Positions 5,258 through 23,243 of a stretch of DNA of 34,217 nucleotides are shown in pieces. A program made the translations under genes and the position numbers. This stretch comes from an uncultured Bacteroidales bacterium (GTDB lineage Bacteria; Bacteroidota; Bacteroidia; Bacteroidales; Bacteroidaceae), in assembly GCA_902770725.1 (NCBI GenBank), contig CACXUA010000024.1, forward strand, positions 1 through 34,217, written 5' to 3'. Position 1 is the first letter of the stretch. Each line of letters begins with the position of its first letter. The notes below the pieces were generated by a model that did not search any database, was not told the origin of the DNA, and saw only the letters and a program-made list of their open reading frames with translations.

Positions 5258-5260
5258 AAA

Positions 5261-5370
5261 ACTTGGCACGCCATCTTTGTAAACTTGGCACGCCATCTTT
5301 GCGAACTTGGCACGTTATCTTTGCAAACATGGCACGCCATCTTTGCAAGGTTAACACGTGTACCTTTCAG
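5261..5370 (+). repeat. 22-nt tandem array A, 3' of the TPR gene
   Basis: Four near-identical 22-nt units start at 5261, 5283, 5305 and 5327, with the core CTTGGCACGCCATCTTTG; a degenerate fifth starts at 5349. The array begins 4 nt after the stop codon of the TPR gene. Units abut without spacers. The gene-free stretch 5258-5573 otherwise holds AT-rich sequence and the efflux-operon promoter. Confidence 0.93.
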
Positions 5371-5495
5371 AGCAGGTTAACTTCCTTGAATGGATAGGTT
5401 AGTGAGATTAGAGAGAGCAAAGCATTAAAATATCTTAAATATTTTATTAAAATAAGACATTTAGGACAATTCTGTGTGCCATTTAGGTTACCCTA

Positions 5496-5529
5496 TTGCT
5501 CCCGATTTCATATTTTTTTCGTACCTTTG
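5496..5529 (+). promoter_or_regulatory. Promoter of the RND efflux operon
   Basis: TACCTTTG at 5522-5529 is a perfect -7 element. The best -33 candidate is TTG at 5496-5498, 23 nt upstream, which is slightly long. The predicted 5' UTR is about 38 nt before the ATG at 5574. No operator for a TetR- or MarR-type repressor is obvious, and no repressor gene is adjacent. Confidence 0.65.
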
Positions 5530-5573
5530 CCGCGCAAAATTAACAAAAAAAACCAATCAAGACTACATATTCT

Positions 5574-6692
5574 ATGAGAAAAACATCAACTCTTATCATG
5601 ACTCTGTCATTGATAACTATGGCTTTTCTGTCTTCTTGCAGCGGCAACAAGACTCAACAACAGATGCCAAGCGCCAACTTTAAGACGATGACCGTCCAGA
5701 CGCAAGAGGTGACCATGACCACGAACTACAGCGCTACCATTCGCGGTAGGCAGGACATCGAGGTCTATCCGCAAGTGGCCGGCACCCTGCAAAGGCTGTG
5801 CGTTACGGAAGGTCAGAAGGTTGCGAAGGGTCAGACGCTCTTCATCATCGACCAGGTTCCCTATCAGGCTGCCTTGAATACCGCTTTGGCTTCACAGCAG
5901 GCTGCCAATGCAAGCCTCGCTACTGCCCAGCTGAACTACGACAGCAAGAAGAAACTTTTCGACGACGGCATCATCAGCGACGTTGAACTTCAAACGGCTC
6001 AGAACACACTTCTCAGTGCCAAGGCTCAGGTTGCTCAAGCAAACGCTACGGTTGTCAACGCTCGTAATAGCCTCAGCTACACGGTTGTGAAGAGTCCCGC
6101 AAATGGTGTTGTAGGCACACTTCCCTACCGTCAGGGCGCCTTGGTGAGCAGCGCTATGCCCCAACCTCTCACAACTGTCAGCGACAACAACCAGATGTAT
6201 GTCTATTTCTCGATTGCTGAAGGTCAGCTCCTCAACATGACTCGCGAGAGCGGAAGCGCAGAAGCAGCTATCGGAGCAATGCCCGACGTGAAGCTCCTGC
6301 TCGTGGATGGAAGCGAATATCCCTACAAGGGAAAAGTGGAGAGCGTGAGCGGCGTGGTTGACCGCAGCACAGGAACTGTTCAGGTTCGTGCCGTCTTCGA
6401 CAACCCTGAGAAACTCCTGCACAGCGGAAGCACCGGCACTGTCGTCATTCCTACTACTTATAAGGACCAGATTGTTGTTCCTGTAACCGCTACAGTTCAA
6501 ATGCAGGACAAGTTCAAGGTCTATCTCGTGGATAAGGACAACATTGCTCACGAGCAACTTGTCACCACAGAACCTCTCTCGAACGGAAAGGAATATGTGA
6601 TTAAGGACGGCTTGAAGGTGGGCGACGTCATCGTGGCAGAAGGCGCTGGTATGCTGAAAGACGGACAAGACATAAAGCCTAATAAGGATTAG
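5574..6692 (+). CDS. RND efflux periplasmic adaptor lipoprotein (AcrA/MexA type)
   Basis: Membrane-fusion subunit linking an inner-membrane RND pump to its outer-membrane channel. At 372 aa it has family length. The signal peptide ends in LSSC (lipidated C22). Next come the barrel-sandwich/lipoyl half motif (IEVYPQVAGTLQRLCVTEGQ, then GQTLFIIDQVPY), an Ala/Gln-rich alpha-hairpin (about residues 98-155), the second lipoyl half (VVKSPANGVVGTLPYRQGALV) and beta-barrel segments with SGVVDRSTGTVQVRAVFDNP. The pump and outer-membrane factor follow directly, so this is the first gene of a three-gene operon. Substrates cannot be read from the sequence; drugs, detergents or bile salts are typical for the family. 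Confidence 0.93.
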   Translation: MRKTSTLIMTLSLITMAFLSSCSGNKTQQQMPSANFKTMTVQTQEVTMTTNYSATIRGRQDIEVYPQVAGTLQRLCVTEGQKVAKGQTLFIIDQVPYQAALNTALASQQAANASLATAQLNYDSKKKLFDDGIISDVELQTAQNTLLSAKAQVAQANATVVNARNSLSYTVVKSPANGVVGTLPYRQGALVSSAMPQPLTTVSDNNQMYVYFSIAEGQLLNMTRESGSAEAAIGAMPDVKLLLVDGSEYPYKGKVESVSGVVDRSTGTVQVRAVFDNPEKLLHSGSTGTVVIPTTYKDQIVVPVTATVQMQDKFKVYLVDKDNIAHEQLVTTEPLSNGKEYVIKDGLKVGDVIVAEGAGMLKDGQDIKPNKD

Positions 6693-6717
6693 GGATTAAG
6701 GATTAGAGATCAAAGTT

Positions 6718-9700
6718 ATGAAAGGTAACATCTTTATAAAGCGACCCGTAATGGCCATTTCGATAGCCATTATGATTCTTTTGGTCGGCGCCATATCATT
6801 CAGTTCCCTGCCTTTGGAACAGTATCCGGACATCGCTCCGCCAACGGTTAGCGTTTATACCACCTACACAGGTGCAAGCGCGGATGCCGTGATGAATGCC
6901 GTCATTCAGCCACTTGAAGAGGCTATCAATGGCGTGGAGAACATGTTGTACATGAGCAGTACTGCCACGAACTCAGGTTCTGCCACTATAAACGTCATCT
7001 TCAAGCAAGGCACCGATCCGGACATGGCTGCCGTCAACGTGCAGAACCGTGTTTCGAGGGCGCAAGGTTTGCTGCCCTCCGACGTGACGAGGGTTGGCGT
7101 GCAGACCATGAAACGCCAGACGTCTTTCCTACAGATTGACGCTCTTTGCAGCGAAGACGGCAAGTACGACGAGGACTTCATCTCGAACTATCTGGACATT
7201 AACGTCATCCCTCAAATCAAACGTGTTGAGGGTGTGGGCGATGTCATGCTGCTGGGCGGCACATATTCGCTGCGCATCTGGATGAAGCCCGAACTGATGG
7301 CACAATACGACGTCATTCCTACCGACATCTCGAATGCTTTGGCAGAGCAGAACTTGGAGTCGCCTGCCGGACAACTTGGTGAGAAACCCGTGAACGGTAC
7401 CCATGGCGACGGCATCGGTAACTACTATCAATATACCCTGAAGTACAAGGGACGTCTGAAGGAAATCTCAGAGTTTGAGGACATCGTGATACGTGCCAAT
7501 CCGGACGGCACACTGCTTCGGCTCAAGGATATCGCAGATGTGGAACTTGGTGCCGTTAGCTACGCCTTCCATGGTGAAGCGAATGGTCATCCTGGCGTCA
7601 CTTTCCTTTGCTTCCAGTTGGCTGGTGCCAACGCAAAGGAGACGAACGACCGTGTAAGCGCTAAACTGGAAGAATTGAGCAAAGACCTGCCGAAAGGCAT
7701 GAAGTTCGTCAAGATGATGTCGAGCAACGACTTCCTTCTGGCATCCATCTCGAATGTTGAAGAGACCTTGTTGGTTGCCATTCTTCTGGTGGTACTCGTG
7801 GTTTACTTCTTCCTGCAGGACTTCAAGGCGACCCTCATCCCCTCGATATCTATTATCGTTTCCTTGGTCGGAACGTTCGCCTGCCTTTCCATGGCTGGCT
7901 TTACGCTTAACTTGCTGACGCTCTTTGCCCTGGTACTTGCCATCGGCACGGTGGTCGATGATGCCATCGTGGTTGTGGAAGCCGTGCAAGCGAAGTTCGA
8001 TGCTGGCTACACAAGCCCTTACGAAGCAACTAAGGATGCGATGAGCGATGTGACGATGGCCGTAATCTCCTGTACGTTTGTCTTCATGGCTGTGTTCATT
8101 CCAGTCAGCTTTACAGGCGGAACAGCAGGTATCTTCTATACACAATTCGGTTTAACGTTGGCAACAGCAGTCGGCTTGTCTTGTGTCAGCGCCCTTGTGC
8201 TCTGCCCTGCCCTTTGTGCCATGATGATGCGTCCTGCAAGCGAGGAACGTCGCAAAGGTTTCTTCGGAACCATCAACTACCGCACTCGCCTCGCTTATGA
8301 AGCAACCTATACGGCCATGATGGAAAAGTATGCGAACGTCTTGCGACGCATGGTTTCCCGCAAGGTAAGGTTCTATGTTTGCTTCGGAGCCCTGGCCGTC
8401 GCAGTTGTTGGCATGCTGTTCTTTGCAAGTCACCTGCCTGGCGGACTCGTTCCAAGCGAAGACCAGGGCGTCTGCATGATGAACGTGAGTGCTGTTCCTG
8501 GCAGTAATGTGGCTTCGACCTACAACGTCATGAACAAGGCACAGAAGATTATCGAGGAAGTTCCCGAGGTAAAGGACTACACGAAGGTTGCCGGCTATGG
8601 CTTCATGTCTGGTCAAGGCACCAGCTACGGCATGTCCGTCATCCGACTGAAACCTTGGGGCGAGCGTCAATACGGCATTGGCTTCGGCATTGCAACTCTG
8701 GCACTTCTGGCATTCATCATAGCCTTGATAGTCTTTATCAGAGGCCTCATCAAGCGGAAGCACATTGGCAAGAAGGCTTTGGCATTTGCCATCATTACAG
8801 TCTTGGCTGCCTTTGCTTTCCTGAACTATCATCCGCTCGACAACATGATGAGTTCGAGCACCATGGTAGCCAACGCAAAACTGAATGCCCGACTGCTGAA
8901 AGAGATACCCGAGGCACAGTGCTTCGTCTTCGAACCTGGCATGATTCCCGGCTACGGCATGGGCTCTATCGAGCTTCAGTTGCAAGACAAGACGGGTACT
9001 GCCGACAAGGCGCTCTTCTTTGATTACACCAAGAAGTTCATTACAGAACTGAGCGAACATCCTGAGGTTGGCCGATGCATCACAACCTACGAACGCAATT
9101 TCCCGCAGTTCCAGGTCGAGGTCGATGCTGCACAATGCAAACGTGCAGGCATTTCGCCAGCAACCGTATTGAGCGCTTTGGCAAGTTATTGCGGCGGTTC
9201 GTACGTGAGCAACATGAACCAGTTCTCGAAGGTTTATCGTGTCATGCTGCAGAGCAATCCGCAAAGCAGAACGACCGAGAGCGACCTAAGCAACATGTTC
9301 ATCCGCAACAACGGGCAGATGGCTCCCTTGAGCCAGTTCGTAAAACTGACGCCCGTCCTTGGTCCCGAGATTGACAACCGCTTTAACCTATTCAGCTCTA
9401 TCTCCGTCAACGTGACAGCCAACACGGGTGTCAGCAACACGGAAGTCATGAAGGTCATCAAGGATGTGCACAAAGAAGTGTTCCCCGAAGGCTACAGCTA
9501 CGAGTATGGCGGCATGGCTCGCGAGGAGGCAGAGACCCTCGACAGCTACGACACCTACCTCACCTACGCCATCTGCGTCATTCTCATCTTCCTCATCCTG
9601 AGCTGTCTCTACGAAAGCTTCCTCATCCCCTTCGCCGTCATCTTCTCTGTGCCTGCAGGCCTGATGGGAACCTACGGCTTTGCTTGGCTGTGGAATACGG

Positions 9701-10128
9701 GCTTCAACTGGACAATAACCATGAACGGACAGGCAGCCCCGATTGGACGCATGCTGTTCATGGGACAGATTGAGAACAACATTTACCTGCAGACGGGCGT
9801 CATCATGTTGATTGGTTTGCTTGCCAAGACGGCTATCCTTATCACGGAGTTCGCACTTGAGCGCCGCAGGAAAGGCATGGGCATCGTGGAGGCCGCCTTT
9901 GCTGCTGCCGAAGCACGTTTGCGCCCAATCCTCATGACGGTGTTGACGATGATTTTCGGTATGATACCTCTCGTCTTTGCAACTTCACCGTGCCTCTCTT
10001 CTTCATCATCTTCGAATACCTGCAGGAAAGGATTCGTCCCGTCATGCACGAAGAAGCCGACCAGCAGTTCCTTAAGGAAAGAGAGCGTTCGCAGAGAGAA
10101 AAGCAAGAATCAGATAACAAGAAAATAA
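6718..10128 (+). CDS. RND efflux pump, inner-membrane subunit (AcrB/HAE1 type), C terminus frameshifted
   Basis: Proton-driven multidrug exporter of the inner membrane, working as a trimer with its neighbours. The 1136-aa frame shows the N-terminal helix, the porter motif MSSTATNSGSATINVIFKQG, the TM4 aspartate pair D414-D415 (GTVVDDAIVVVE) and the TM10 lysine K1037 (GLLAKTAILITEF) used in proton relay. Two oddities. First, residues 652-704 insert two hydrophobic stretches flanking a basic loop into the periplasmic domain. Second, after MIPLVFA (A1088) the frame turns into a Ser/Lys-rich tail, while a typical TM12 sequence continues in another frame from 9984. About 25-28 codons including the conserved Gly-Ala-Asn-Gly loop are missing there. 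As written the pump lacks TM12 and may be inactive, or the sequence may contain an error. Confidence 0.9.
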   Translation: MKGNIFIKRPVMAISIAIMILLVGAISFSSLPLEQYPDIAPPTVSVYTTYTGASADAVMNAVIQPLEEAINGVENMLYMSSTATNSGSATINVIFKQGTDPDMAAVNVQNRVSRAQGLLPSDVTRVGVQTMKRQTSFLQIDALCSEDGKYDEDFISNYLDINVIPQIKRVEGVGDVMLLGGTYSLRIWMKPELMAQYDVIPTDISNALAEQNLESPAGQLGEKPVNGTHGDGIGNYYQYTLKYKGRLKEISEFEDIVIRANPDGTLLRLKDIADVELGAVSYAFHGEANGHPGVTFLCFQLAGANAKETNDRVSAKLEELSKDLPKGMKFVKMMSSNDFLLASISNVEETLLVAILLVVLVVYFFLQDFKATLIPSISIIVSLVGTFACLSMAGFTLNLLTLFALVLAIGTVVDDAIVVVEAVQAKFDAGYTSPYEATKDAMSDVTMAVISCTFVFMAVFIPVSFTGGTAGIFYTQFGLTLATAVGLSCVSALVLCPALCAMMMRPASEERRKGFFGTINYRTRLAYEATYTAMMEKYANVLRRMVSRKVRFYVCFGALAVAVVGMLFFASHLPGGLVPSEDQGVCMMNVSAVPGSNVASTYNVMNKAQKIIEEVPEVKDYTKVAGYGFMSGQGTSYGMSVIRLKPWGERQYGIGFGIATLALLAFIIALIVFIRGLIKRKHIGKKALAFAIITVLAAFAFLNYHPLDNMMSSSTMVANAKLNARLLKEIPEAQCFVFEPGMIPGYGMGSIELQLQDKTGTADKALFFDYTKKFITELSEHPEVGRCITTYERNFPQFQVEVDAAQCKRAGISPATVLSALASYCGGSYVSNMNQFSKVYRVMLQSNPQSRTTESDLSNMFIRNNGQMAPLSQFVKLTPVLGPEIDNRFNLFSSISVNVTANTGVSNTEVMKVIKDVHKEVFPEGYSYEYGGMAREEAETLDSYDTYLTYAICVILIFLILSCLYESFLIPFAVIFSVPAGLMGTYGFAWLWNTGFNWTITMNGQAAPIGRMLFMGQIENNIYLQTGVIMLIGLLAKTAILITEFALERRRKGMGIVEAAFAAAEARLRPILMTVLTMIFGMIPLVFATSPCLSSSSSSNTCRKGFVPSCTKKPTSSSLRKESVRREKSKNQITRK
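8671..8829 (+). other. Insertion encoding a predicted transmembrane hairpin in the RND pump
   Basis: Codes residues 652-704 of the pump. Two hydrophobic segments (about 652-678 and 687-704) flank the basic loop KRKHIGKK. They sit between VIRLKPWGER and the periplasmic stretch ending in FEPGMIPGYGMG, where AcrB-type pumps have only a short surface loop. The basic loop fits the positive-inside rule, so the chain could dip through the membrane and return. Confidence 0.6.
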
Positions 10129-10136
10129 GAGAATAA
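9984..10136 (+). pseudogene. Out-of-frame TM12 and C-terminal tail of the RND pump
   Basis: Read from 9984, this frame gives FTVPLFFIIFEYLQERIRP and then a charged tail, closing at TAA 10134-10136. That is the normal last helix and tail of an AcrB-type pump. It lies in a different frame from the preceding coding sequence, which breaks at 9981-9984. The stop sits 3 nt before the next ATG at 10140, the spacing expected if this were the original end of the gene. Confidence 0.85.
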
Positions 10137-10139
10137 GAA

Positions 10140-11531
10140 ATGAGCATATACATTAAGAAAGCCTCCCTTTGGGGAGGTTTGGTGGGGGCTATACTTCTGA
10201 GTTCCTGCCAGCTCTACAAGAACTACGAGCGTCCTGCCGACATCATTACCGACGGCATTTATGGCGACATGCAAACCGCTGGCGACAACAGCCTGGGCGA
10301 CTTGAAGTGGCGCGACATCTTTACCGACCCCAAGCTGCAGGTACTCATCGAAAAGGGTCTGCAGAACAGCGACATGAAGAATGCCGAGCTGAGAATCCAG
10401 GAAGCCGACTATGCCCTGAAGTGCGCCAAACTGGCCTACATCCCAAGCCTCTACTTCAATCCAAGCGGTACCATCAGCAAGGCATGGGACCCTTACGACC
10501 GCAATGACTATGCCGCCAGCAAGACCTATTCCCTGCCGGTTCAGATGAGTTGGCAAGTGGGGAGCATCGGTTCGCTGCGCAACAGCAAGAAGAAGGCCGA
10601 AGTGACGCGCGACCAACTCCGCAACGCCAAGCAAGCCATTCAGGCTCAAATCGTTGCAAGTATCGCCTCGATGTACTACAACCTCTCGATGCTTGACGAG
10701 CAACGGCTCTTAACGGTGCAGACGGAAGAAAACTGGGGCAAATACCTGCAGATGCAACAGCAGTTGATGAACGCAGGTCAGAGCAACATGGCAGCCGTTG
10801 CAAGCATCGAAGCCACCTATTACAGCATTCAAACGTCTGTCGTTTCCATCGATAACAGCATACATGCCTTCGAGAATGCTCTCTCAACACTTCTCGGCGA
10901 AACACAATTCCACATCGACAGGAACCCATTGGCCTCCTTCCAGACGCCTGCCATTTGCTCTACAGGCATGCCCATCACTATCCTCGACCGACGTCCGGAT
11001 GTTCGTGATGCTGAGTACAAACTGGCAGCTGCTTTCTACGACAAGAACATTGCATACAGCAGTTTCTTCCCGCAACTCAACATCACAGCTAACGGCCAGT
11101 TTACCAACTCCTTAGGTGGCGTCGTCAATCCAGGCGTGTTCATCGGTGCTGCTGTTGCAAGTCTTGCCCAGCCGCTCTTCGACAATGGAAGGATTCGCGC
11201 CAAGTACAAGGTCTCGAAAGCAGAAATGGAGATTGCCACAAATGACTTCAAGCAGGCAGTCATCAAGGCTGGAAACGAGGTGAATCTGGCAATGGACGAC
11301 ATCTATGTGGCCCGTGAAATGCAGGGGCTCATCGACAAGCAAGTGGAATCTCTTTCCAAGGCACTCGACGCCACGCAGAAACTCTATCAGAATACCGGCA
11401 CGAACTACTTGAATGTCATCACTGCACAGAACTCCCTACTCTCTGCCCAGATGAGCCAGATCAGCAACCGCATGGATGCCATTACCGCCACCATCAACCT
11501 CTATCAGGCACTTGGCGGCGGCGCAGAGTAG
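10140..11531 (+). CDS. Outer-membrane efflux lipoprotein (TolC/OprM, NodT family)
   Basis: Trimeric outer-membrane channel of the tripartite efflux system; 463 aa, family length. The signal peptide ends in LSSC (lipidated C23). Two outer-membrane efflux domains follow: one around residues 50-245 (LKWRDIFTDPKLQVLIEKGL, then an Asn/Ala/Gln-rich helical hairpin), the other around 275-460 (LDRRPDVRDAEYKLAAAFYDKNIAYSSFFPQ split by a loop, ending LYQALGGG). RRPDVRDAE is a typical signature of this family. It starts 3 nt after the out-of-frame end of the pump gene, so it is translationally close to it. Codons 8-17, inside the signal peptide, are formed by a palindromic repeat that recurs between genes elsewhere in the window. 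Confidence 0.93.
   Translation: MSIYIKKASLWGGLVGAILLSSCQLYKNYERPADIITDGIYGDMQTAGDNSLGDLKWRDIFTDPKLQVLIEKGLQNSDMKNAELRIQEADYALKCAKLAYIPSLYFNPSGTISKAWDPYDRNDYAASKTYSLPVQMSWQVGSIGSLRNSKKKAEVTRDQLRNAKQAIQAQIVASIASMYYNLSMLDEQRLLTVQTEENWGKYLQMQQQLMNAGQSNMAAVASIEATYYSIQTSVVSIDNSIHAFENALSTLLGETQFHIDRNPLASFQTPAICSTGMPITILDRRPDVRDAEYKLAAAFYDKNIAYSSFFPQLNITANGQFTNSLGGVVNPGVFIGAAVASLAQPLFDNGRIRAKYKVSKAEMEIATNDFKQAVIKAGNEVNLAMDDIYVAREMQGLIDKQVESLSKALDATQKLYQNTGTNYLNVITAQNSLLSAQMSQISNRMDAITATINLYQALGGGAE
10161..10188 (+). repeat. Palindromic dispersed repeat, copy 1 (inside a signal-peptide coding region)
   Basis: CCTCCC at 10162-10167 pairs with GGGAGG at 10172-10177, followed by TTTGGTGGGGG. Related elements lie at 28411-28438 and, in the opposite orientation, 33401-33431. 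This copy is translated as SLWGGLVGA in the outer-membrane factor's signal peptide. Confidence 0.7.
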
Positions 11532-11582
11532 AATCAAAAAGCAGGCTTAATTGGTACAACCTATAGATAATCGAGAAAAGCC

Positions 11583-12476
11583 ATGAAGAGATTCTTATTA
11601 TCTCTGCTTACGTTAATCACTTTTAGTGCAATTGCACAAGATAGAGTTTCCCTTATCAGAGAGAAACTGATGAGCCGTAATTGCAGTTCCGTTATTGTCG
11701 CCGCGCATCGAGGTGACTGGCGTAACTTTCCCGAAAACTCTCTCGAGGCCATTGACAATGCCATCAAGATGGGAGTTGATATTGTAGAGTTGGATGTTCA
11801 GCGCACAAAAGACGGACAACTCATTCTCATGCACGACCCCACACTAAACAGGACGACCACGGGCAAGGGAGCCATAGCAGACACCACGTTGGCCTACATC
11901 AAGACTTTGAAACTCAGAAACGGGTGCGCTATCCGTACCATTCATAATGTTCCCACACTCGAAGAAGCCTTACTGCATGCCAAAGGAAAGGTGATGCTCA
12001 ACTTGGATAAGGCAGACCGATACTTCGAACAAGTTTATGAATTGATGAAGAAAACGGGAACCACCAAGCAGATAATAATGAAGGGGAATTCGTCTGCAGA
12101 AAAAGTAAAGGAACTCTATGGCGACTATCTGAAGGACGTCATCTACATGCCCATCGTGAACCTCGACAAAGAGAATGCCGAGGAACAGATAGAGACGTTT
12201 ATCGGCAATATGCATCCCGTAGCTTTTGAGCTCCTGTACAAGGAAGACACCAATCCTTTGCCCAAGAAGCTGAAAGAGACAATGCAGGGACGTTCCCTCA
12301 TTTGGTACAACACCCTTTGGGACACAATGGCTGGCGGACACGACGACGATGCCTCCCTGCAAGATTTCAATAATGGCTATGGATATCTGATAGACGTACT
12401 GGGTGCAAGAATCATTCAGACCGACCGCCCACAATTCCTCCTTGATTACCTACGTTCGAGGAACCTACACGACTAA
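11583..12476 (+). CDS. Secreted glycerophosphodiester phosphodiesterase family protein
   Basis: Hydrolyses glycerophosphodiesters (deacylated phospholipids) to glycerol-3-phosphate and an alcohol; 297 aa. The signal peptide (MKRFLLSLLTLITFSAIAQ) ends with a typical cleavage site and no lipobox, so it is probably periplasmic. GDPD motifs are clear: AHRGDWRNFPENS with the catalytic HRG, VDIVELDVQRTKDG with metal-binding Glu and Asp, and LMHDPTLNRTT with the second catalytic His. Late motifs are weaker, but VMLNLDKAD and a final GARIIQTDRP fit the barrel's last strands. It lies 51 nt after the efflux operon, without a clear promoter, and converges with the GH92 gene over a shared hairpin. The exact substrate is unknown. 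Confidence 0.9.
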   Translation: MKRFLLSLLTLITFSAIAQDRVSLIREKLMSRNCSSVIVAAHRGDWRNFPENSLEAIDNAIKMGVDIVELDVQRTKDGQLILMHDPTLNRTTTGKGAIADTTLAYIKTLKLRNGCAIRTIHNVPTLEEALLHAKGKVMLNLDKADRYFEQVYELMKKTGTTKQIIMKGNSSAEKVKELYGDYLKDVIYMPIVNLDKENAEEQIETFIGNMHPVAFELLYKEDTNPLPKKLKETMQGRSLIWYNTLWDTMAGGHDDDASLQDFNNGYGYLIDVLGARIIQTDRPQFLLDYLRSRNLHD

Positions 12477-12495
12477 ATGAAGGTGGCTGACAACC

Positions 12496-12539
12496 GAAGT
12501 GAACCCCAGAAGTATTGTCTAACTTCTGGGGTTCACTTC
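12496..12539. terminator. Bidirectional hairpin between convergent genes
   Basis: A perfect 18-bp stem: 12496-12513 pairs with 12522-12539 around an 8-nt loop (ATTGTCTA). It sits between the GDPD stop (12476) and the GH92 stop (12564). No strong T run follows on either strand, so it may end transcription poorly by itself or protect 3' ends. Confidence 0.7.
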
Positions 12540-12563
12540 AAATAGGCACACCCTCATTCCTTT

Positions 12564-14912: not shown

Positions 14913-14943
14913 ATAAATAATATATAATGTGTGACTTTCTGTG

Positions 14944-14977
14944 CAAAGATACACATATTCCTGCAATAAAACAACAA
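14944..14977 (-). promoter_or_regulatory. Promoter of the GH92 gene
   Basis: On the minus strand TATCTTTG (plus 14944-14951) is preceded by TTG (plus 14972-14974) at 20 nt spacing. The transcript would start near 14937, about 25 nt before the ATG at 14912. Confidence 0.7.
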
Positions 14978-15019
14978 GTCAGGCACAGAAAATATAGAAA
15001 GTTATTGTGGGGCGTTGAA

Positions 15020-15135
15020 AAATTAGGCGTGCTTAATTGGAAAACTCGGCGTGCCAAATTGAAGAAGTCGGCGTGCCGAATTGAAGAACTTGGCACGCCG
15101 AATTGGAGAACTTGGCGAGCCGAGTTGGAGAAGCC
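15020..15135 (-). repeat. 22-nt tandem array B, 3' of the flippase gene
   Basis: GGCGTGC or GGCACGC cores recur at 15026, 15048, 15070, 15092 and 15114, exactly 22 nt apart. Read on the minus strand the best units contain AATTTGGCACGCCGACTTC, close to array A. The array begins about 17 nt after the flippase stop and lies upstream of the GH92 promoter. Confidence 0.9.
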
Positions 15136-15151
15136 GACTACAGTCGTTTCT

Positions 15152-16666
15152 CTACTTCCTGAGTTTGCGAACCAAACACTTCATGCAATCCGACCGATGC
15201 AGCAACCGAGAGACACTCAAAGCGACCGATGCAATGAAGGCAATAGCGCCCGTTGTGTACCGCTCCTCATCAGAAGGAGAAACAAGATAGCAGTACTCCA
15301 CAGCCACAAGCAAACAAGCAAGTTGTCCGAGGCAGAACAGGAATGTACTCCTACGGAAAATGAATCCGTAGCGGAAATGGCAGAAGAGGAAATAAATCAC
15401 CACATCGTAAAGGGCTCCTACGCTGAACGCAATGCCTGCTCCGACAAGTCCAAACGAATTGTAACACCACCAGATGAGCAAGCCAAAGAACACATCAAAG
15501 CACACCTCAAGCACGAGATATGTGATGCTGTGACCTTTCGCCAGAACGCTGTAACCCATTGGCAGAGAGATACATCGCAGGAAAGAATAGAAGACAGAAA
15601 GCGTTGCCATACCCGTCACGACAAGGAACTCGTCCTTGTAAAGCAGTTGCAACACAAACGGCATGAGTACGACAAGCAGAATCAACATAGGCGTGATGAG
15701 CAACGTACACACGTCAATCTGCTGATTGATGGTGTCGTTCATGCGTTGCCTGTCGTTATTCACGGCCGAGAGACGCGGGAAATAATCGGACTCCAAAGCA
15801 AGGAAGACCAGTCCCGAATAACCTACCATCACCTTCCAACCTGCGCTATAATAACCCAACTCTGCTTCCGAATGACTGGAAAGGATGATAGCCACGATGG
15901 CAATCGGCAGGAAGGAATTGGCCACGCCTGCCAGCACGTAAGGTATGCCGACTTTTATGAGCGGCAAACCCTCGCAAAAGGTTTTCTGCGAGAGGGGTTT
16001 CACCTTGTAAGACACCAAACGAAGCGAGAAAGAGAAATGCACGACTGCAGACAGGAATCCGCAGGCAATCAGTCCAACTATAACGCCTCGAATGCCCAAT
16101 AAATAGTAAAGAGGTATCGTGCAGAACAACGTTCCGAGAGCAAGAATCGTCTCGATGACAGCCACCTTCCGCACCTGTCTGAGGCCTTTCAGGATAGCAC
16201 ATTCGCCTTCCGCAATGATATTACTCACGGCTACCAACGAGGTGAGCATTACTGCAGGCCAGCGAGTCCAGTCGTGATTGAAATAGAAATAACTGATGAT
16301 GGGCGAGAAGAAAAGGCAAATCAAGACAGACAGCATGGCCGACCACAACACCCAGGTACGAATGACCATCACTTGATGCGCTATCTGTTCCTCTGTTCCG
16401 TTCTCGAACAACTCACTCGTCTTTCGCGTGGCATTCAAGGGAATACCCATGTTGCTGGCGTTGTTCAGGAACTCGAAGACAGCATTATAAGCCGTAATGA
16501 GGCCAATGCCCCAACTGCCCAAGATTATAGCCGTAAGCTTCTCACGCACGACGCTGACCGACATCTTCAAGCCTTGTACACCACCAAAGATGCCCGTGTA
16601 CTTCAGTACATGGTCAAATGAGGTGTCACTCGTCTCTGGGTTATGAAGATTCTTCAGATCGTCCAT
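15152..16666 (-). CDS. Polysaccharide flippase-like membrane protein (MOP/Wzx superfamily)
   Basis: Integral membrane protein of about 504 aa with 12-14 hydrophobic helices, of the type that moves lipid-linked sugar units across the inner membrane. The N-terminal stretch GGVQGLKMSVSVVREKLTAI and the conserved LGSWGIGLITAYNA are typical of Bacteroidetes O-antigen or exopolysaccharide flippases; later helices include AGVANSFLPIAIVAIILS and LITPMLILLVVLMPFVLQLL. The glycosyltransferase upstream supports a role in surface-glycan assembly. A start at 16681 is possible, but it lies almost at the predicted transcription start, so the ATG at 16666 is preferred. The 391-aa opposite-strand frame is a shadow. 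The transported sugar is unknown. Confidence 0.87.
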   Translation of the reverse strand: MDDLKNLHNPETSDTSFDHVLKYTGIFGGVQGLKMSVSVVREKLTAIILGSWGIGLITAYNAVFEFLNNASNMGIPLNATRKTSELFENGTEEQIAHQVMVIRTWVLWSAMLSVLICLFFSPIISYFYFNHDWTRWPAVMLTSLVAVSNIIAEGECAILKGLRQVRKVAVIETILALGTLFCTIPLYYLLGIRGVIVGLIACGFLSAVVHFSFSLRLVSYKVKPLSQKTFCEGLPLIKVGIPYVLAGVANSFLPIAIVAIILSSHSEAELGYYSAGWKVMVGYSGLVFLALESDYFPRLSAVNNDRQRMNDTINQQIDVCTLLITPMLILLVVLMPFVLQLLYKDEFLVVTGMATLSVFYSFLRCISLPMGYSVLAKGHSITYLVLEVCFDVFFGLLIWWCYNSFGLVGAGIAFSVGALYDVVIYFLFCHFRYGFIFRRSTFLFCLGQLACLLVAVEYCYLVSPSDEERYTTGAIAFIASVALSVSRLLHRSDCMKCLVRKLRK

Positions 16667-16689
16667 CGCTTCTTTTTGCATTCGGGCTG

Positions 16690-16697
16690 CAAAGGTA
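16690..16697 (-). promoter_or_regulatory. -7 element for the flippase gene
   Basis: TACCTTTG on the minus strand, about 24 nt before the chosen start codon at 16666. No good -33 match is seen at the usual distance, so it may be weak or serve alongside read-through from the glycosyltransferase gene. Confidence 0.5.
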
Positions 16698-16719
16698 CAA
16701 AATAAATTTGGATTAGAGA

Positions 16720-17835
16720 TTACCTGTTAGGGATTATTTTCTCTAACCCTTCGAATAGCGACACATACTGGCGCGCAACCTTCTGGTAATGGTGATGTTT
16801 CTGAACAAACGCAACAGACTGACGCTTCGCCTCGGCAAGCCTTTCCGGATGCAGGACATATTGTTCCAACTGACGATATATTCCATCCTCATCACACGGC
16901 AGGTCAATCATCGGAAATGACTCCTTCTCCGAGAGCAACTCATATGCCTCGGGAATCGCGACAGTAGCAGCCACAATGCCCTTCGACATAGCAATCAAGG
17001 CATTCATGGCATAGCAAGTGTAGAGTTGATCGACGAGAATGTCGCTTCCCTCCATCATGCGGCAGTACTCGTCATACGGCACATTCTCCGCCTTGACGAG
17101 CGTAACCTTGTCGGGATAGTCGTCCCTTAACTTCTGCAACACCTTCCATAAGATGTCCGTTCCCTTTTCCTCGTCACGCTCCTTCTGTATCCCTATAAAG
17201 AAACGTACAGGGCCTTCTGTATCTTGAATGCATACAGGCTCCTCGGAAACCTCCATTGACAAAGGAACGAAACGTGTCTTCTCGGGGAAGTAATGATGCA
17301 GACTTGCCCAGTATTCGTAGCCTGTGCCGACGAGCAGATGGCTCGCTTCAGCCATGTGTTTGCCCAAAGCAACCACTTCCGGATGGTTCAGCCAGACGTC
17401 CGCCCTTTCTGTAGCGAAGTCATTGGTCCGTAACTTGTCCCCAACATTGAAGTCACTACTCCTGAAAAGCTTCGCCTCAATGCAGCCCTTGACATAGTAA
17501 TGACCGATTCCCAGCAAAGAAGTTACTGTGTAGCGGTTGTGCTTACGGATGAAATCAAAGAAGAAGCGCTTCAGGCCGGGCTTGAAGTCCATCATGAATT
17601 GTCCGTTGAAGTCAACAACATCATACCCTCTAAGCCTAGGCAACAACACAAGCCAGCGGAACAGATAGACTATGGCTCCCCAGCGACCAGCGCCCCGCTC
17701 AATGTACTTATCCACATGCATTTGCCGCCACTTCCCGCTTGTGCCTATAACCAGAGCCTCGTGACCAAGTTCACGCAACCCTTTTGCCAGAGTATAGCGT
17801 GCATTGCTGGCATCACCTATAAAAAGAAACTTCAT
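16720..17835 (-). CDS. Glycosyltransferase, GT4-like (GT-B fold)
   Basis: Predicted cytoplasmic or membrane-associated sugar transferase, 371 aa. The N terminus MKFLFIGDASNARYTLAKGL with ELGHEALVIG matches the acceptor-side Rossmann half of GT-B enzymes. The C-terminal half carries RFFIGIQKERDEEKGTDIL, DILVDQLYTCYAMNALIAMSKG and VAIPEAYELLSEKESFPMI, equivalent to the donor-nucleotide region of family GT4. The frame is open to 17892, but a -7 element at 17866-17873 lies inside that extension and the ATG at 17835 starts the conserved fold, so it is chosen. The flippase follows after 53 nt on the same strand. Donor and acceptor sugars cannot be inferred. Confidence 0.85.
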   Translation of the reverse strand: MKFLFIGDASNARYTLAKGLRELGHEALVIGTSGKWRQMHVDKYIERGAGRWGAIVYLFRWLVLLPRLRGYDVVDFNGQFMMDFKPGLKRFFFDFIRKHNRYTVTSLLGIGHYYVKGCIEAKLFRSSDFNVGDKLRTNDFATERADVWLNHPEVVALGKHMAEASHLLVGTGYEYWASLHHYFPEKTRFVPLSMEVSEEPVCIQDTEGPVRFFIGIQKERDEEKGTDILWKVLQKLRDDYPDKVTLVKAENVPYDEYCRMMEGSDILVDQLYTCYAMNALIAMSKGIVAATVAIPEAYELLSEKESFPMIDLPCDEDGIYRQLEQYVLHPERLAEAKRQSVAFVQKHHHYQKVARQYVSLFEGLEKIIPNR

Positions 17836-17865
17836 TCCTTTCTCAAAATTCAAGAGATTTAATCG

Positions 17866-17873
17866 CAAAGGTA
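17866..17873 (-). promoter_or_regulatory. -7 element for the glycosyltransferase gene
   Basis: TACCTTTG on the minus strand, about 30 nt before the ATG at 17835. No convincing -33 match is visible. It faces away from the rplM promoter about 75 nt to the right. Confidence 0.55.
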
Positions 17874-17947
17874 ACAAAAAAAATGGCGTCATATTATGTA
17901 AAACATAAAAATAAGCATGCCAAGAAGAAAAAAAGTCTTGCCTGTGC

Positions 17948-17977
17948 TTGCAGAATTGGGAAAAAGTTGTACCTTTG
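17948..17977 (+). promoter_or_regulatory. Promoter of the rplM-rpsI operon
   Basis: TTG at 17948-17950 and TACCTTTG at 17970-17977 are 19 nt apart, an excellent consensus match. Transcription would start near 17984, leaving a leader of about 138 nt before rplM. Confidence 0.8.
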
Positions 17978-17983
17978 CACGCC

Positions 17984-18121
17984 GATTATTATCAAAGGAC
18001 CCCTAAAGGGCCCTCTCGAAGCGTGTGAATAGTCCGCATCATTGGCCTGAACGGATGGTTCGTGAATCGCTCGACAAATGAGAAATAAACTAGGTAGAAA
18101 CAAACAAAAGTAAGACAAAGA
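17984..18121 (+). ncRNA. Structured 5' leader of rplM (candidate ribosomal-protein leader)
   Basis: The long leader can fold. A first hairpin spans 17996-18014 (GGACCC with GGGCCC around CTAAA, one mismatch). A second closes with TCGAAGCG (18016-18023) pairing to CGCTCGA (18068-18074), one bulge, and holds an inner TCCG/CGGA stem (18033-18036 with 18052-18055). L13 operons in many bacteria are controlled by such leaders, and from memory an L13 leader motif has been proposed for Bacteroidia. Regulation by L13 binding is therefore likely but inferred. Confidence 0.6.
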
Positions 18122-18583
18122 ATGGATACTTTGAGTTACAAGACCATCTCGATGAACAAGAACACCGTCAAGAAGGAATGGGTCGTAGTTGACGCTACAG
18201 ACCAGGTTCTCGGTCGTCTCTGCACGAAGGTGGCAAAATTGCTGAGAGGCAAGTACAAGGCTGAGTTCACTCCCAACGTGGACTGCGGTGACAACGTAAT
18301 CATCGTAAATGCCGACAAGATTATCATCACTGGTAAGAAGATGACAGACCGCACTTATCTGTCATACACAGGCTACCCCGGTGGCCAGCGCGCAACAACT
18401 CCTGCCGAGATTCTGGCTAAGCCAAACGGCGCAGAGAAGCTGCTTCGCCGCACAGTAAAGGGCATGCTGCCCAAGAACAAGCTGGCTGACAAGCTCATCA
18501 CAAACCTCTACATCTATGGTGGTGCAGAGCACAATCAGCAGGCACAGAGCCCCAAGGCTATTGATATTAACCAGTATAAATAA
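18122..18583 (+). CDS. rplM: 50S ribosomal protein L13 (uL13)
   Basis: Early-assembly protein of the large ribosomal subunit, 153 aa. It carries the family motifs WVVVDATDQVLGRLCTKVAKL, LRGKYKAEFTP with DCGDNVIIVNADKI, TYLSYTGYPGGQR and RRTVKGMLPKNKL. The N terminus MDTLSYKTISMNKNTVKKEW matches the longer Bacteroidales form, which supports the ATG at 18122 over the internal one. rpsI follows after 9 nt, the classic L13-S9 pair. The long structured leader suggests autoregulation. Confidence 0.97.
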   Translation: MDTLSYKTISMNKNTVKKEWVVVDATDQVLGRLCTKVAKLLRGKYKAEFTPNVDCGDNVIIVNADKIIITGKKMTDRTYLSYTGYPGGQRATTPAEILAKPNGAEKLLRRTVKGMLPKNKLADKLITNLYIYGGAEHNQQAQSPKAIDINQYK

Positions 18584-18592
18584 TCACCAAAC

Positions 18593-18988
18593 ATGGATAC
18601 GAAATACATAGCTAATGCATTGGGCCGCCGCAAGTGCGCCGTTGCCCGTGTGTACGTCAGCGAAGGTAATGGCAAGATTACCATCAACAAGCGCGACCTC
18701 ACCGAGTACTTCCCCAGCACCATCCTGCAGTTCGTGGTTAAGCAGCCTCTGGCTCTGCTCGACGTTGCCGAGAAGTATGACATCAACGTCAACCTTTATG
18801 GTGGCGGTTACACAGGTCAGTCTCAGGCTCTTCGCCTCGCTATTGCCCGCGCTCTCGTGAAGATTAATGCTGAGGACAAGAAGGCACTCCGTGCTGAAGG
18901 TTTCATGACACGCGACAGCCGCGAGGTCGAGAGAAAGAAGCCAGGTCGTCCAAAGGCACGTCGTCGCTTCCAGTTCAGCAAGCGTTAA
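18593..18988 (+). CDS. rpsI: 30S ribosomal protein S9 (uS9)
   Basis: Small-subunit protein whose C-terminal tail contacts P-site tRNA; 131 aa. NALGRRKCAVARVYV, GNGKITINKRDLTEYFP, GGGYTGQSQALRLAIARAL and the basic tail KKPGRPKARRRFQFSKR, ending in the conserved SKR, are all present. It is the second gene of the rplM operon, 9 nt after rplM. The rpsB-tsf pair follows after a 176-nt gap, the usual Bacteroidales order. Confidence 0.97.
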   Translation: MDTKYIANALGRRKCAVARVYVSEGNGKITINKRDLTEYFPSTILQFVVKQPLALLDVAEKYDINVNLYGGGYTGQSQALRLAIARALVKINAEDKKALRAEGFMTRDSREVERKKPGRPKARRRFQFSKR

Positions 18989-19044
18989 TCGCTGCATAAC
19001 ATACTGGACCGCGAAAAGCTGTTTAGCATCTAAATCTGCCTGAC

Positions 19045-19080
19045 TCCCTTTCCTTATATATTATATATAATGTATAGGGA
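19045..19080 (+). promoter_or_regulatory. Stem-loop in the rpsI-rpsB gap (candidate S2 leader element)
   Basis: TCCCT (19045-19049) pairs with AGGGA (19076-19080) and encloses TTATATA (19054-19060) pairing with TATATAA (19064-19070). It lies about 85 nt before rpsB. It could be part of a leader or an attenuator; there is no direct evidence for either. Confidence 0.35.
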
Positions 19081-19164
19081 AGTCATGGGGACTACTCGCA
19101 GATTGGTTCTAAAACACAAAGAATTAACAAAGAAAGTAAACAACAAACAAAACAAACAAGAACA

Positions 19165-19974
19165 ATGTCAAGAACTAATTTTGAGACTTTATTGGAGGCC
19201 GGATGTCACTTCGGTCACCTCAAGAGAAAGTGGAACCCCGCTATGGCTCCTTACATCTTCATGGAGCGTAACGGCATTCATATCCTCGACCTGCACAAGA
19301 CTGTTGCTAAGGTTGACGAAGCTGCTGAAGCTTTGAAGCAGATTGCCAAGAGCGGTAAGAAGATCCTCTTTGTCGCTACCAAGAAACAGGCCAAGCAATG
19401 CGTTGCCGACCTCGCTACTTCCGTAGGCATGCCCTACGTTATCGAGCGCTGGCCCGGCGGCATGCTCACCAACTTCCCCACAATCCGCAAGGCTGTGAAG
19501 AAGATGAGCAACATCGATAAGCTCATTGCCGACGGTACATTCAGCAACCTCTCCAAGCGTGAGATTCTGCAGGTGAGCCGCCAACGTGCTAAGCTCGAGA
19601 AGAACCTCGGTTCTATCGCCGACCTCAACCGCCTGCCCTCTGCACTCTTCGTCGTTGACGTACTGAAGGAGCAGATTGCAGTTCGTGAGGCAAACCGTCT
19701 GGGCATTCCCGTGTTCGGTATCGTCGATACGAACAGCAACCCCGACAACATCGACTTCGTAATCCCCGCAAACGACGATGCAAGCAAGAGCATCGAGGTT
19801 ATCCTCCAGGCTTGCTGTGCTGCCATCAACGAGGGTCTCGAAGAGCGTAAGGCTGAGAAGGCCGACAGCGACGCTGCTGCCGAGCAGGAAGACCAGCCCG
19901 TGAAGAAGGGTCGTCGCAGCGGTAAGGCTCGCGAAGAGGCTGAAGAAGCTCCTGAAGCTCCCGAAGCTGAGTAA
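19165..19974 (+). CDS. rpsB: 30S ribosomal protein S2 (uS2)
   Basis: Small-subunit protein that joins late in assembly, 269 aa. Family signatures: TNFETLLEAGCHFGHLKRKWNP (residues 3-24), the FVATKKQAK and VIERWPGGMLTNF segments, LNRLPSALFVVDVLKEQIAV and IVDTNSNPDNIDFVIPANDDA. The C terminus extends into a charged Glu/Ala/Lys tail (from about residue 225) of low complexity, common in Bacteroidetes S2. tsf follows on the same strand, the conserved pair. The 144-nt spacer carries an inverted repeat. No clear -7 element precedes the gene, so it may be read from the rplM promoter. Confidence 0.97.
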   Translation: MSRTNFETLLEAGCHFGHLKRKWNPAMAPYIFMERNGIHILDLHKTVAKVDEAAEALKQIAKSGKKILFVATKKQAKQCVADLATSVGMPYVIERWPGGMLTNFPTIRKAVKKMSNIDKLIADGTFSNLSKREILQVSRQRAKLEKNLGSIADLNRLPSALFVVDVLKEQIAVREANRLGIPVFGIVDTNSNPDNIDFVIPANDDASKSIEVILQACCAAINEGLEERKAEKADSDAAAEQEDQPVKKGRRSGKAREEAEEAPEAPEAE

Positions 19975-19999
19975 AAATAGTGGTTAGGGGTTAGTGGTT

Positions 20000-20058
20000 A
20001 GAGGTTAGAGAAATGTTCAGGCTGCTGATTTCAATGCCAAAGGTATTCTCTAACCTCT
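20000..20058 (+). repeat. Inverted repeat of GGTTAGAG-type spacer sequence between rpsB and tsf
   Basis: A perfect 13-bp stem (20000-20012 with 20046-20058) around a 33-nt loop, embedded in repeated GGTTAG/CTAACC words (19979-20084). Related GGATTAGGGATTA words occur at about 6684-6710 and 16710-16737. It may modulate tsf relative to rpsB. Confidence 0.6.
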
Positions 20059-20118
20059 TACTTCTAACCTCTTACCTCTAATCAAACATGAATTACAAAC
20101 ATAAACAAAGATACTACT

Positions 20119-21111
20119 ATGGAAGTTACAATGAATGACATCAAGAAGCTCCGCGAAATGACGGGCGCTGGTCTGGCAGACTGCAAAAAGGCTCTGGCAG
20201 AAAGCGACGACATGGACGGTGCTGTTGCATACCTGCGCAAGAAGGGTCAGGCTGTTGCCGCTAAGCGTAGCGACCGCGAGGCTGCCGAAGGTTGCGTGCT
20301 CGTGAAGGCTGAGAACGGCTTTGCCGCTATCATCGCCCTGAAGTGCGAGACCGACTTCGTGGCAAACAACGCCGACTTCGTGGCCCTGACACAGAGCATC
20401 CTCGACGCTGCCGTTGCCGCTAAGTGCAAGACTCTGGACGAGGTGAAGGCTCTTCCCATGGGCGAAGGCACTGTTGCCGACGCTGTTACCGCTCGCAGCG
20501 GTATCACTGGCGAGAAGATGGAACTCGACGGCTACTGCACCATCGAGGGCGAGAACATCGCTACCTACAACCACATGAACCGCAACGGACTCTGCACCAT
20601 GCTCAATCTGAGCAAGAAGGTAGAGGACGAGACTGTAGGCAAGAACATCGCCATGCAGATTGCAAGTGCTTCTCCCGTGGCTATCGACGAGACAGGCGTT
20701 CCTCAGAGCGTTAAGGACAACGAGTTCGCTGTTGCCATCGAGAAGTCTAAGGCCGAGCAAGTGCAGAAGGCTGTAGAGGCTGCCATCAAGAAGGCTGGCT
20801 TCAACCCCGCACACTTCGACAGCGAGGATCACATGGAGAGCAATCAGGCCAAGGGCTGGATCACAGCCGAGGACGTTGCCAAGGTGAAGGAAATCATCGC
20901 AACCGTTTCTGCCGAGAAGGCTGCAAACCTGAACCCCGCTATGATCGAGAACATCGCAAAGGGTCGTGTAAACAAGTTCCTCAAAGAGAACTGCCTGATG
21001 AGTCAGGAGTACATCTGGGACAAGAACCTTACCGTTGCCTCTTATCTTCAGAGCATCGACAAGGAGCTGACAGTCACCGACTTCAAGCGCTTTACTCTCC
21101 GCGCAGAGTAA
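20119..21111 (+). CDS. tsf: Elongation factor Ts
   Basis: Guanine-nucleotide exchange factor that recharges EF-Tu, 330 aa. The N-terminal UBA-like module shows IKKLREMTGAGLADCKKALAE; the core holds the TDFVANN motif (KCETDFVANNADFVAL) that inserts into EF-Tu, and later DCKN-like and IAMQIASASPVAI segments. The C terminus has GRVNKFLKENCLMSQEYIWD. The ATG at 20119 fits the Bacteroidales form (MEVTMNDIKK); a second in-frame ATG four codons later is less likely. A strong intrinsic terminator follows at 21134. Confidence 0.96.
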   Translation: MEVTMNDIKKLREMTGAGLADCKKALAESDDMDGAVAYLRKKGQAVAAKRSDREAAEGCVLVKAENGFAAIIALKCETDFVANNADFVALTQSILDAAVAAKCKTLDEVKALPMGEGTVADAVTARSGITGEKMELDGYCTIEGENIATYNHMNRNGLCTMLNLSKKVEDETVGKNIAMQIASASPVAIDETGVPQSVKDNEFAVAIEKSKAEQVQKAVEAAIKKAGFNPAHFDSEDHMESNQAKGWITAEDVAKVKEIIATVSAEKAANLNPAMIENIAKGRVNKFLKENCLMSQEYIWDKNLTVASYLQSIDKELTVTDFKRFTLRAE

Positions 21112-21133
21112 TCCAAACGATACTGATTCGGTT

Positions 21134-21169
21134 ATGCCTCATGAGCCAAAAGCTTGTGAGGCATTTTTG
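21134..21169 (+). terminator. Intrinsic terminator after tsf
   Basis: ATGCCTCA (21134-21141) pairs with TGAGGCAT (21157-21164), followed by TTTTGTTTT. It closes the ribosomal-protein cluster 23 nt after the tsf stop. Confidence 0.85.
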
Positions 21170-21278
21170 TTTTGGCGGCATAGCATTTGTGCATGTGCGT
21201 TTGTGCATCCTCATATATATAAAGAGGATGCACAATGCACAAAACCTAATAGAGAATCGACCCCAGTGTCGTTGGCAA

Positions 21279-21366
21279 ACATCACGTGCCATCTTTGCAA
21301 ACTTGGCGTGCCATCTTGACCAACTTAACGTGCCATGTTTGCAAACATGGCGTGCCACGTTTGGAG
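21279..21366 (+). repeat. 22-nt tandem array C, 3' of tsf
   Basis: Four 22-nt units start at 21279, 21301, 21323 and 21345, with the core GGCGTGCCATCTT or ACGTGCCATSTTTGCAA. They match array A apart from swaps such as CACG to CGTG. A partial unit precedes them (about 21261-21278). This lies in the 440-nt gene-free stretch 21112-21551, which holds the tsf terminator, this array, an 11-nt array and then AT-rich sequence (21416-21551) in which no other feature is seen. Confidence 0.92.
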
Positions 21367-23216: not shown

Positions 23217-23243
23217 TTAATTCCTTGTTTATATTTTCAACCG

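Follow-up and report, generated by a model that had tools for sequence, protein, structure and literature searches.

Arrays of 22-nt dyad units near gene ends in an uncultured Bacteroidales genome and its relatives: a repeat family defined by its geometry

The stretch of DNA analysed here (the window) comprises 34,217 nucleotides of an uncultured Bacteroidales bacterium of the family Bacteroidaceae (assembly GCA_902770725.1, contig CACXUA010000024.1) and carries four intergenic arrays of short repeats that follow one another at steps of exactly 22 nt. A preliminary description of the window had reported three of them (A, B and C), sharing a GGCRYGCC core and each lying 3′ of a gene in the same orientation relative to it, and had proposed either binding sites aligned along the same helical face or a role at mRNA 3′ ends. 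The contiguous 22-nt units of A, B and C are confirmed, the end of array A having been misplaced by some bases, while a fourth array (D) had been overlooked. The arrays and the genes beside them are as follows.

44..127, no strand: array D, four units of 22 nt each with CGCC-CNNG-GGCG cores
3137..5257, plus strand: gene for a TPR-repeat protein of 706 amino acids, upstream of array A
5260..5343, no strand: array A, four units AACWTGGCACG(CC/TT)ATCTT plus a 4-nt linker, 2 nt past the stop of the TPR-protein gene
5348..5365, no strand: AGGTTAACACGTGTACCT, a degenerate fifth unit that keeps the register of array A
15021..15126, no strand: array B, five units, 25 nt past the stop of the minus-strand flippase-like gene
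15152..16681, minus strand: Polysacc_synt_3 / MurJ-like flippase gene, upstream of array B
20119..21111, plus strand: elongation factor Ts gene (tsf), upstream of array C
21278..21361, no strand: array C, four units whose plus strand reads CGTG, between tsf and a minus-strand gene that converges on it

The units are contiguous at every array and no spacers separate them, which rules out a CRISPR array, as had been stated from the outset. In array D, unit 1 approximates the reverse complement of unit 4, and as single-stranded DNA the array folds into one long hairpin (z −6.9 against shuffles). Directly after array C stands an 11-nt tandem repeat, TATGTAGGCTT, at positions 21376-21419 and 21463-21478.

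The genome that contains the window (G000, in which the window is contig C24) is a fragmented metagenome-assembled genome (MAG) of 2.26 Mb that is 80.6% complete. Our census covered 724 kb of it on 15 contigs, the window among them, with 532 genes called by a custom dicodon scorer whose stops are reliable and whose starts are uncertain. A profile built from the units found 71 arrays with 286 units, and no array in the reversed sequence. Strong unit pairs stood 22 nt apart in 194 cases and 44 nt apart in 130, and never at distances of 18-21 or 23-26 nt. A search for identity at a lag of 22 nt, which presumes neither sequence nor palindromy and merges matches within 150 nt, gave 82 arrays against 0-3 at lags of 20, 21, 23 and 24. 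Extrapolated from the 71 profile and 82 lag arrays, the frequency is about one per 8-10 kb, or ~220-260 sites per genome. Arrays of four units are the most common (37 of 71), followed by those of five (13), three (10), two (6), six (4) and seven (1), the score threshold of the profile possibly leading to an under-count of two-unit arrays.

Each unit consists of an 18-bp dyad and a 4-bp linker, with the form AA-CTT-GG-C(RY)G-CC-AAG-TT in this genome, where AA, C, G and TT are almost invariant. The unit dyads are spaced 22 bp and a further dyad symmetry is centred on the linkers, 11 bp off. The central core is CACG in 129 of the 286 units and CGTG in 127; because the two are reverse complements within a dyad, they represent one site on opposite strands. 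Adjacent cores within one array are the same in 145 cases and opposite in 32. The half-site shows an internal correlation, with CC after the central Y accompanied by T (171 v 122) and TT by C (86 v 39; p = 6e-7). The unit profile holds no constant GTAG or CGTC tetranucleotide tag, the linkers showing CGTC four times in the listed counts.

The position of the arrays relative to genes is clearly non-random. Forty of the 71 lie in gaps between codirectional genes, 20 in convergent and 6 in divergent gaps, 4 within reading frames and 1 at a contig edge, compared with null expectations of 16% for convergent and 27% for divergent gaps. The codirectional arrays are found at a median distance of 25 nt from the stop codon, versus 195 nt in the null, and 32 of the 40 are closer to the preceding 3′ end. 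The proposed location 3′ of genes thus holds as a strong bias without being universal, given the arrays in divergent gaps and reading frames; array C lies 166 nt past tsf. A common orientation, on the other hand, does not exist. On the gene strand all cores are CACG in array A and CGTG in array C, while B has three CACG, one CGTG and one CTCG; among the 40 codirectional arrays the majority core on that strand is CACG in 19 and CGTG in 19, with 2 ties. Random orientation and random position had been put forward as signs of a sporadic or artefactual repeat: of the two, only the orientation proves to be random. No gene found in the 724 kb is bracketed by arrays at distances of up to 300 nt.

The arrays are also evenly spaced. 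Because the genome is fragmented, spacing was measured only within contigs, with the nulls placed on the same contigs and in the same counts. The gaps between profile arrays (n = 56) have a mean of 9.3 kb and a coefficient of variation (CV) of 0.60, against 0.88 for random gene 3′ ends, 0.80 for random non-divergent intergenic positions and 0.90 for uniform placement (P ≤ 0.004). Only 3 gaps are shorter than 3 kb where these nulls predict 14.9, 11.2 and 16.1, respectively (P ≤ 0.004). Two additional nulls left the picture unchanged and both halves of the contig set are evenly spaced, the first one weakly (P 0.044 for the CV and 0.015 for close pairs). The lag-detected arrays, 80 of which lie on contigs with more than one, give a mean gap of 8.0 kb and a CV of 0.53 v 0.78-0.89 (P ≤ 0.0005). 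In relatives of the same genus, 64 lag-detected arrays have a mean gap of 9.4 kb with a CV of 0.67 v 0.83-0.86 (P ≤ 0.015), and 4 gaps are below 3 kb where 12-13.5 are expected (P ≤ 0.015). Even spacing hence recurs where the arrays are of another sequence.

The family is defined by its 22-nt dyad geometry and not by GGCRYGCC, which had been regarded as the shared core and turns out to be a local version. A scan of ~1.17 Mb from 34 relatives for three successive dyads found 41 arrays at period 22 (two of them, in G291 and in a stretch of G322, are doubtful and rich in AT) versus 0-1 at periods of 19-21, 23-28 and 30. The lag method detected 70 arrays in same-genus relatives at 22 nt against 0-3 at lags 20, 21, 23 and 24. 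Their unit sequences are unrelated to the core, as illustrated by ATAAGTCCCTGTACTTAT in G429, TTTCTCACGTGTGAGACA and GCATCTACATGTAAATGC in G166, AACTTCTCTGCAGAACTT and ATAATGGTTAAGCATTAT in G418, AACTCTCTATAGAGGGTT in G422 and TGAGACACGGCCGTCTCA in G426. Of 156 centres in the relatives, 38 are fully self-complementary where ~10 are expected, about four times chance. Scanning related genomes for the unit itself, as had been suggested, does produce matches, but in a narrow range: the exact GGCRYGCC form is present in 23 of the 139 genomes of the genus, G000 among them, and nine of these 23 hold no more than two matches. The one or two exact GGCRYGCC-22 matches per genome in other genera were judged to be chance or coding matches, and an order-wide pattern search with a single unit family, too specific for other families, matched only G000 among 295 genomes. 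One unit type is present in nine stretches of Bacteroidaceae/Prevotellaceae MAG records (RUG606, a reindeer MAG and a roe deer omasum MAG). In eight other genera of the family (620 kb), 30 arrays were detected at lag 22, compared with 6 at 21, 5 at 23 and at most 1 at other lags from 15 to 40; sixteen of the 30 come from the 80 kb of g19, and the genera g15, g24 and g20 yielded none.

Positions are partly conserved even where the sequence is not. Comparison of 60 orthologous gaps (28 distinct) between G000 and its relatives revealed an array in both genomes in 11, in G000 only in 7, in the relative only in 4 and in neither in 38 (Fisher p = 7e-5); control lags gave 2 of 60. At the site of array B, six of the eight relatives compared have a 22-nt array, mostly with a different unit sequence (AACTTGACGTGTCGAGTT, AACGCCGCACGCGGGGAT, ATAATGGTTAACCTATCT, GCTTCATCGCGATGAAGC), and the two that lack it have shorter gaps of 185 and 162 nt. 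The distance from the flippase stop to the last dyad centre is 34 nt in G000, G467 and G418 and 35 nt in G166, but 72 nt in G194 and 110 nt in G468. The orthologue of array A is shorter by one unit in G467 and of the GTTAAC type in G418.

The same 22-nt arrays also exist in frame within two conserved genes, mnmG and an M16 peptidase gene (G000:C8:46660-48628 and G000:C3:38700-39936; loci L113 and L104), which could be read in 19 of 22 and 16 of 19 cases, respectively. The mnmG array has two to five units depending on the species and is absent from two of the 19 sequences (G460 and G452). Its units diverge between species (AATGCCCTATAGGGGAGT, AATATCACACGTGATAAT, ATTCCCACACTGGGAAAA, AACTTCACTGCAGAAGTT) in a register that is set by the protein. 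For 16 sequences, leaving out G460 and G452 as well as G468, which is shifted by one base, the Watson–Crick fraction at the fixed dyad centres of the last three units is 0.61, 0.66 and 0.75, against 0.44-0.46 with arms shuffled between species. Neighbouring centres reach at most 0.32 for the second and third unit and, with a shift of one, 0.50 for the last; the fourth unit from the end (0.36 v 0.29, z 1.6) is not significant, and the third unit of G440 is out of register. Relative to the Pfam GIDA profile, MnmG of G000 has a net gain of 32 amino acids (residues 6-427 v 1-390). The array-bearing M16 peptidase exceeds its Pfam profile by only 2 (168-346 v 5-181), and the distance between its anchors is unchanged in 15 of 16 species irrespective of content. 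In G424 the M16 linker (L264) contains other palindromes, of the CCTCCCTTAAAGGGAGGG type and by eye off the 22-nt steps, so this linker seems to admit various palindromic DNA. Immediately upstream of the mnmG array of relatives (e.g. L235, L242, L248) we noticed a quasi-palindrome with a CACG-like centre in the native coding DNA, AACTTCTCACGGAGGAAA in G467 with variants elsewhere, which in several species with shorter arrays shares the 22-nt register of the added units, as though it had seeded the array.

Sequence is shared among the loci of one genome. A set of 43 arrays from five loci and 17 species gave a unit identity of 0.650 when different loci of the same species were compared, 0.548 for a given locus in different species and 0.511 for all other pairs; none of 2000 permutations, which ignore the species tree, reached 0.650. 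The effect is clearest in the base pairs beside the core (0.593, 0.441 and 0.400 for the same classes). This set leaves out MnmG of G429, G460 and G452, the last unit of every mnmG array, site B of G495, and M16 of G460, G467, G166, G424, G452 and G491. The flanks of the 71 arrays gave 39 pairwise matches, mostly short, and most arrays have no leader or tail in common, so that a mobile element with shared ends was rejected. The exception is array C, whose tail, with the 11-nt repeat, recurs over 145 nt beside the array at C7:74013 (89% identical) and partly near C1:5537; at least one array must therefore have been copied together with its flank.

If the arrays functioned as selected RNA hairpins, G-U pairs should exceed A-C mismatches on the transcribed strand. 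No such excess is seen for the codirectional arrays of G000 (97 v 111), the relatives (11 v 19) and the sense strands of mnmG (11 v 22) and M16 (6 v 14); the last mnmG unit alone is reversed (8 v 4). Moreover, no pairing scheme is preferred in the arrays of G000 over their own other arm combinations, be it within units (−0.005 ± 0.012), across junctions (0.000 ± 0.013) or over the whole array (−0.018 ± 0.010); the last value lends no support to the whole-array hairpin suggested by folding. Together with the half-site correlation, these results favour, on balance, symmetric double-stranded DNA as the form in which the arrays are read. RNA hairpins, and with them the role at mRNA 3′ ends considered in the preliminary description, are disfavoured. 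Its other proposal, binding sites on the same helical face, is probably the better of the two, judging by the dyads, the half-site behaviour and the lack of strand sense in the sequence.

How might such arrays work? Dyads at two-turn steps, blocks of ~88 bp, a location at transcription ends, spacing of ~8-10 kb and no strand sense together give them the appearance of anchor sites. Supercoil domains of E. coli are reportedly of the same scale, ~8-10 kb. We tentatively favour, at somewhat less than even chances, the view that the arrays are clustered double-stranded sites of a putative dimeric DNA-binding or topology-handling complex and serve as spaced landmarks of the chromosome; protein binding, the dimeric state and the organising role are steps that we infer. 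About four dyads per cluster, one per two helical turns, would be held by the dimeric protein or complex. Placed where transcription ends or converges and depleted between divergent genes, the sites would lie between transcription units and could serve there as anchors of DNA topology or of the nucleoid. Their positions and 22-bp register would often be inherited while the recognition sequence shifts in each lineage across many loci, and coevolution of site and protein might cause the sequence to change in concert.

Several observations weigh against such landmarks. Single strands fold better than shuffles (z −2.5 to −6.9 as DNA, −2.6 to −8.8 as RNA), with long hairpins possible, and certain pairings of arms from different units slightly exceed genome-wide shuffles (z 2.1-2.7). 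Only 9 of 286 centres are fully self-complementary among the listed counts of G000. Besides the two conserved genes with in-frame arrays, two further reading frames have arrays at their ends. The unrelated unit families that coexist in G418 (GTTAAC and CTGCAG types) make a single sequence-specific reader awkward, and no candidate for the cognate protein emerged, no dedicated test having been made. The spacing in relatives is a partly dependent repeat of that in G000 because positions are partly shared by descent, and the depletion of close pairs could also stem from loss by recombination between near repeats. The 60 gap pairs are non-independent, site B alone supplying 8, and the relative lacks an array in 7 of the 18 orthologous gaps that have one in G000. 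Arrays are few or absent in some relatives, and 3′ of tsf (readable at 29 of 30 loci) a 22-nt repeat is the best periodicity in only 7 of 28 readable relatives, with other sequence families. In the other genera, detection by three dyads is weak (5 arrays at 22 nt v 3 at 21, 2 at 23 and 2 at 24), three of the five lying in g19.

The strongest rival to the landmark reading is a selfish or neutral palindromic minisatellite. A hairpin unit would be copied in tandem by slippage during replication or repair, one arm serving as template for the other; variants would spread between loci by templated copying and accumulate where they are tolerated, at gene ends and in loose protein loops. This would account well for the in-frame arrays in a tolerated MnmG loop and the M16 linker, for mnmG arms that vary by species and yet remain complementary in a protein-set register, for the sequence families common to several loci and for the 145-nt tail common to two arrays. 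Hairpin-based copying may occur, given the folding of single strands and the covariation of mnmG arms between species. What a minisatellite explains less readily is a step of exactly 22 nt in all families found, a copy number peaking at four (subject to the possible under-count of two-unit arrays), the even spacing in G000 and its relatives, and the absence of a favoured arm pairing within G000 arrays. We regard it as a serious but unlikely explanation. More improbable, in our estimation, is a role confined to transcription boundaries, in which protein-bound arrays would serve as roadblocks or insulators only locally, where genes end or converge, devoid of any chromosome-scale function. The short distance to stop codons in codirectional gaps and the surplus of convergent over divergent sites (20 v 6 of 71) speak for it. 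However, there are only 71 arrays for 532 called genes, some lie within genes or, by eye, past a stem resembling an intrinsic terminator (after tsf; C7:32843), and the even spacing demands something further.

The two remaining explanations carry still less weight. RNA hairpins at mRNA 3′ ends, acting in stability or termination, would fit the 3′ location and the folding of sense-strand RNA above shuffles, with z values of −4.4 for array A and −8.8 for B; the two strands of C give −2.6 and −3.9. They have little to recommend them in view of the G-U counts (the last mnmG unit excepted), the missing orientation and pairing scheme, the excess of self-complementary centres in relatives and the failure of the arrays to match any Rfam family at gathering thresholds. 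Least probable is a transposase-driven class, whether REP/RAYT repeats or a miniature inverted-repeat transposable element (MITE) such as BrickBuilt. Palindromic, high-copy, intergenic repeats in species-specific families would be typical of it, and a search of 19 genomes gave Y1 transposase matches in 6, including the array carriers G166, G429, G468 and G495. Yet there is no Y1 (Y1_Tnp) match in the 80.6% complete G000, which speaks against RAYT-driven REP repeats there, nor in G467, G491, G418, G439, G194 and G322, some of these being incomplete MAGs. For most arrays leader and tail are unshared, and position and register are often inherited. The flank comparison thus gave no leader and tail as in BrickBuilt; no systematic search for terminal inverted repeats was made.

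It is conceivable, if rather doubtful, that the arrays form a chromosome-organising system in this genus and at least some other genera of the family, with ~220-260 sites per genome that are defined solely by their geometry. Position and register would then last on the time scale of the genus while each lineage rewrites the sequence at all its sites together, through either a coevolving, fast-evolving DNA-binding protein or an in-register copying mechanism that overwrites arrays. Our searches of open-licence PubMed Central articles brought up no account of arrays that are conserved only in their geometry. If the landmark reading is true, rumen and related Bacteroidaceae would possess chromosome-wide landmarks that searches by sequence similarity miss because only the geometry is conserved. 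The origin of ~10-kb supercoil or nucleoid domains would become directly testable, and the arrays would be a bacterial instance of sites and their reader being rewritten in concert. If instead the selfish reading is true, they would represent a minisatellite of palindromes that keeps its register as it evolves and lies in frame within conserved genes.

Several other elements of the window can be mentioned briefly. The short gap preceding tsf has two facing 14-nt tandem repeats that are roughly complementary, TAGTGGTTAGAGGT (19978-20008) and CTCTAACCTCTTAC (20048-20081). A 9-nt repeat, TTAACTCCC, is present in almost six copies at 23172-23224, where a divergent gap follows the gene at 21552-23138. 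An L13-Bacteroidia ribosomal protein leader at 17997-18068 (plus strand) is the sole match to Rfam in the whole window at gathering thresholds. The reading frames 28456-30198 and 30131-32185 overlap in succession and may be one large gene with a frameshift.

Among known systems, matS, KOPS and SlmA sites are motifs distributed in many copies along the chromosome and read as double-stranded DNA. The 22-nt arrays resemble them in their many distributed copies and differ in that those motifs are single and fixed in sequence. The palindromic elements of Rickettsia lie in frame in conserved genes as well as between genes, as the arrays do in MnmG and M16. They are, however, single larger palindromes with a family sequence, whereas the arrays are short tandem dyads of fixed 22-nt geometry whose sequence varies with the species at one and the same place.

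REP/BIME elements and REPINs are described as short palindromes of high copy number, intergenic and often clustered but also present in coding regions, with proposed roles in supercoiling; CGTC-type REP repeats occur in Bacteroidetes (PMC3733652, PMC2817692). The arrays of G000 are likewise palindromic, intergenic and possibly topological. They differ by their exact head-to-tail step of 22 nt, a free sequence and the absence of both the GTAG/CGTC tag and a RAYT match; in addition, 22-nt arrays often share position and register between species and are evenly spaced along the chromosome. In function, REP/BIME elements are characterised by the binding of gyrase, IHF or further proteins. PARCEL elements are tandem palindromic repeats in coding DNA whose 75-nt units encode an amphipathic protein repeat (PMC2996958). 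In contrast, our arrays lie largely outside coding DNA, and a unit of 22 nt is not divisible by 3. Porphyromonas gingivalis has intergenic 23-nt tandem repeats without spacers, 22-nt tandem repeats, mentioned for strain W83, and the BrickBuilt MITE, a single sequence family of 19 copies with up to 22.8 units, a leader, a tail and IS5-like terminal inverted repeats (PMC4596501). Unlike BrickBuilt, most of our arrays have no shared ends. P. gingivalis, with its 22-, 23- and 41-nt tandem direct repeats, BrickBuilt included, nevertheless belongs to the same order, and its 23-nt repeats are similarly intergenic and spacer-free. Finally, as in a protein-bound operator array, the dyads described here are in helical phase, recurring every 22 bp with the linker centres 11 bp away.

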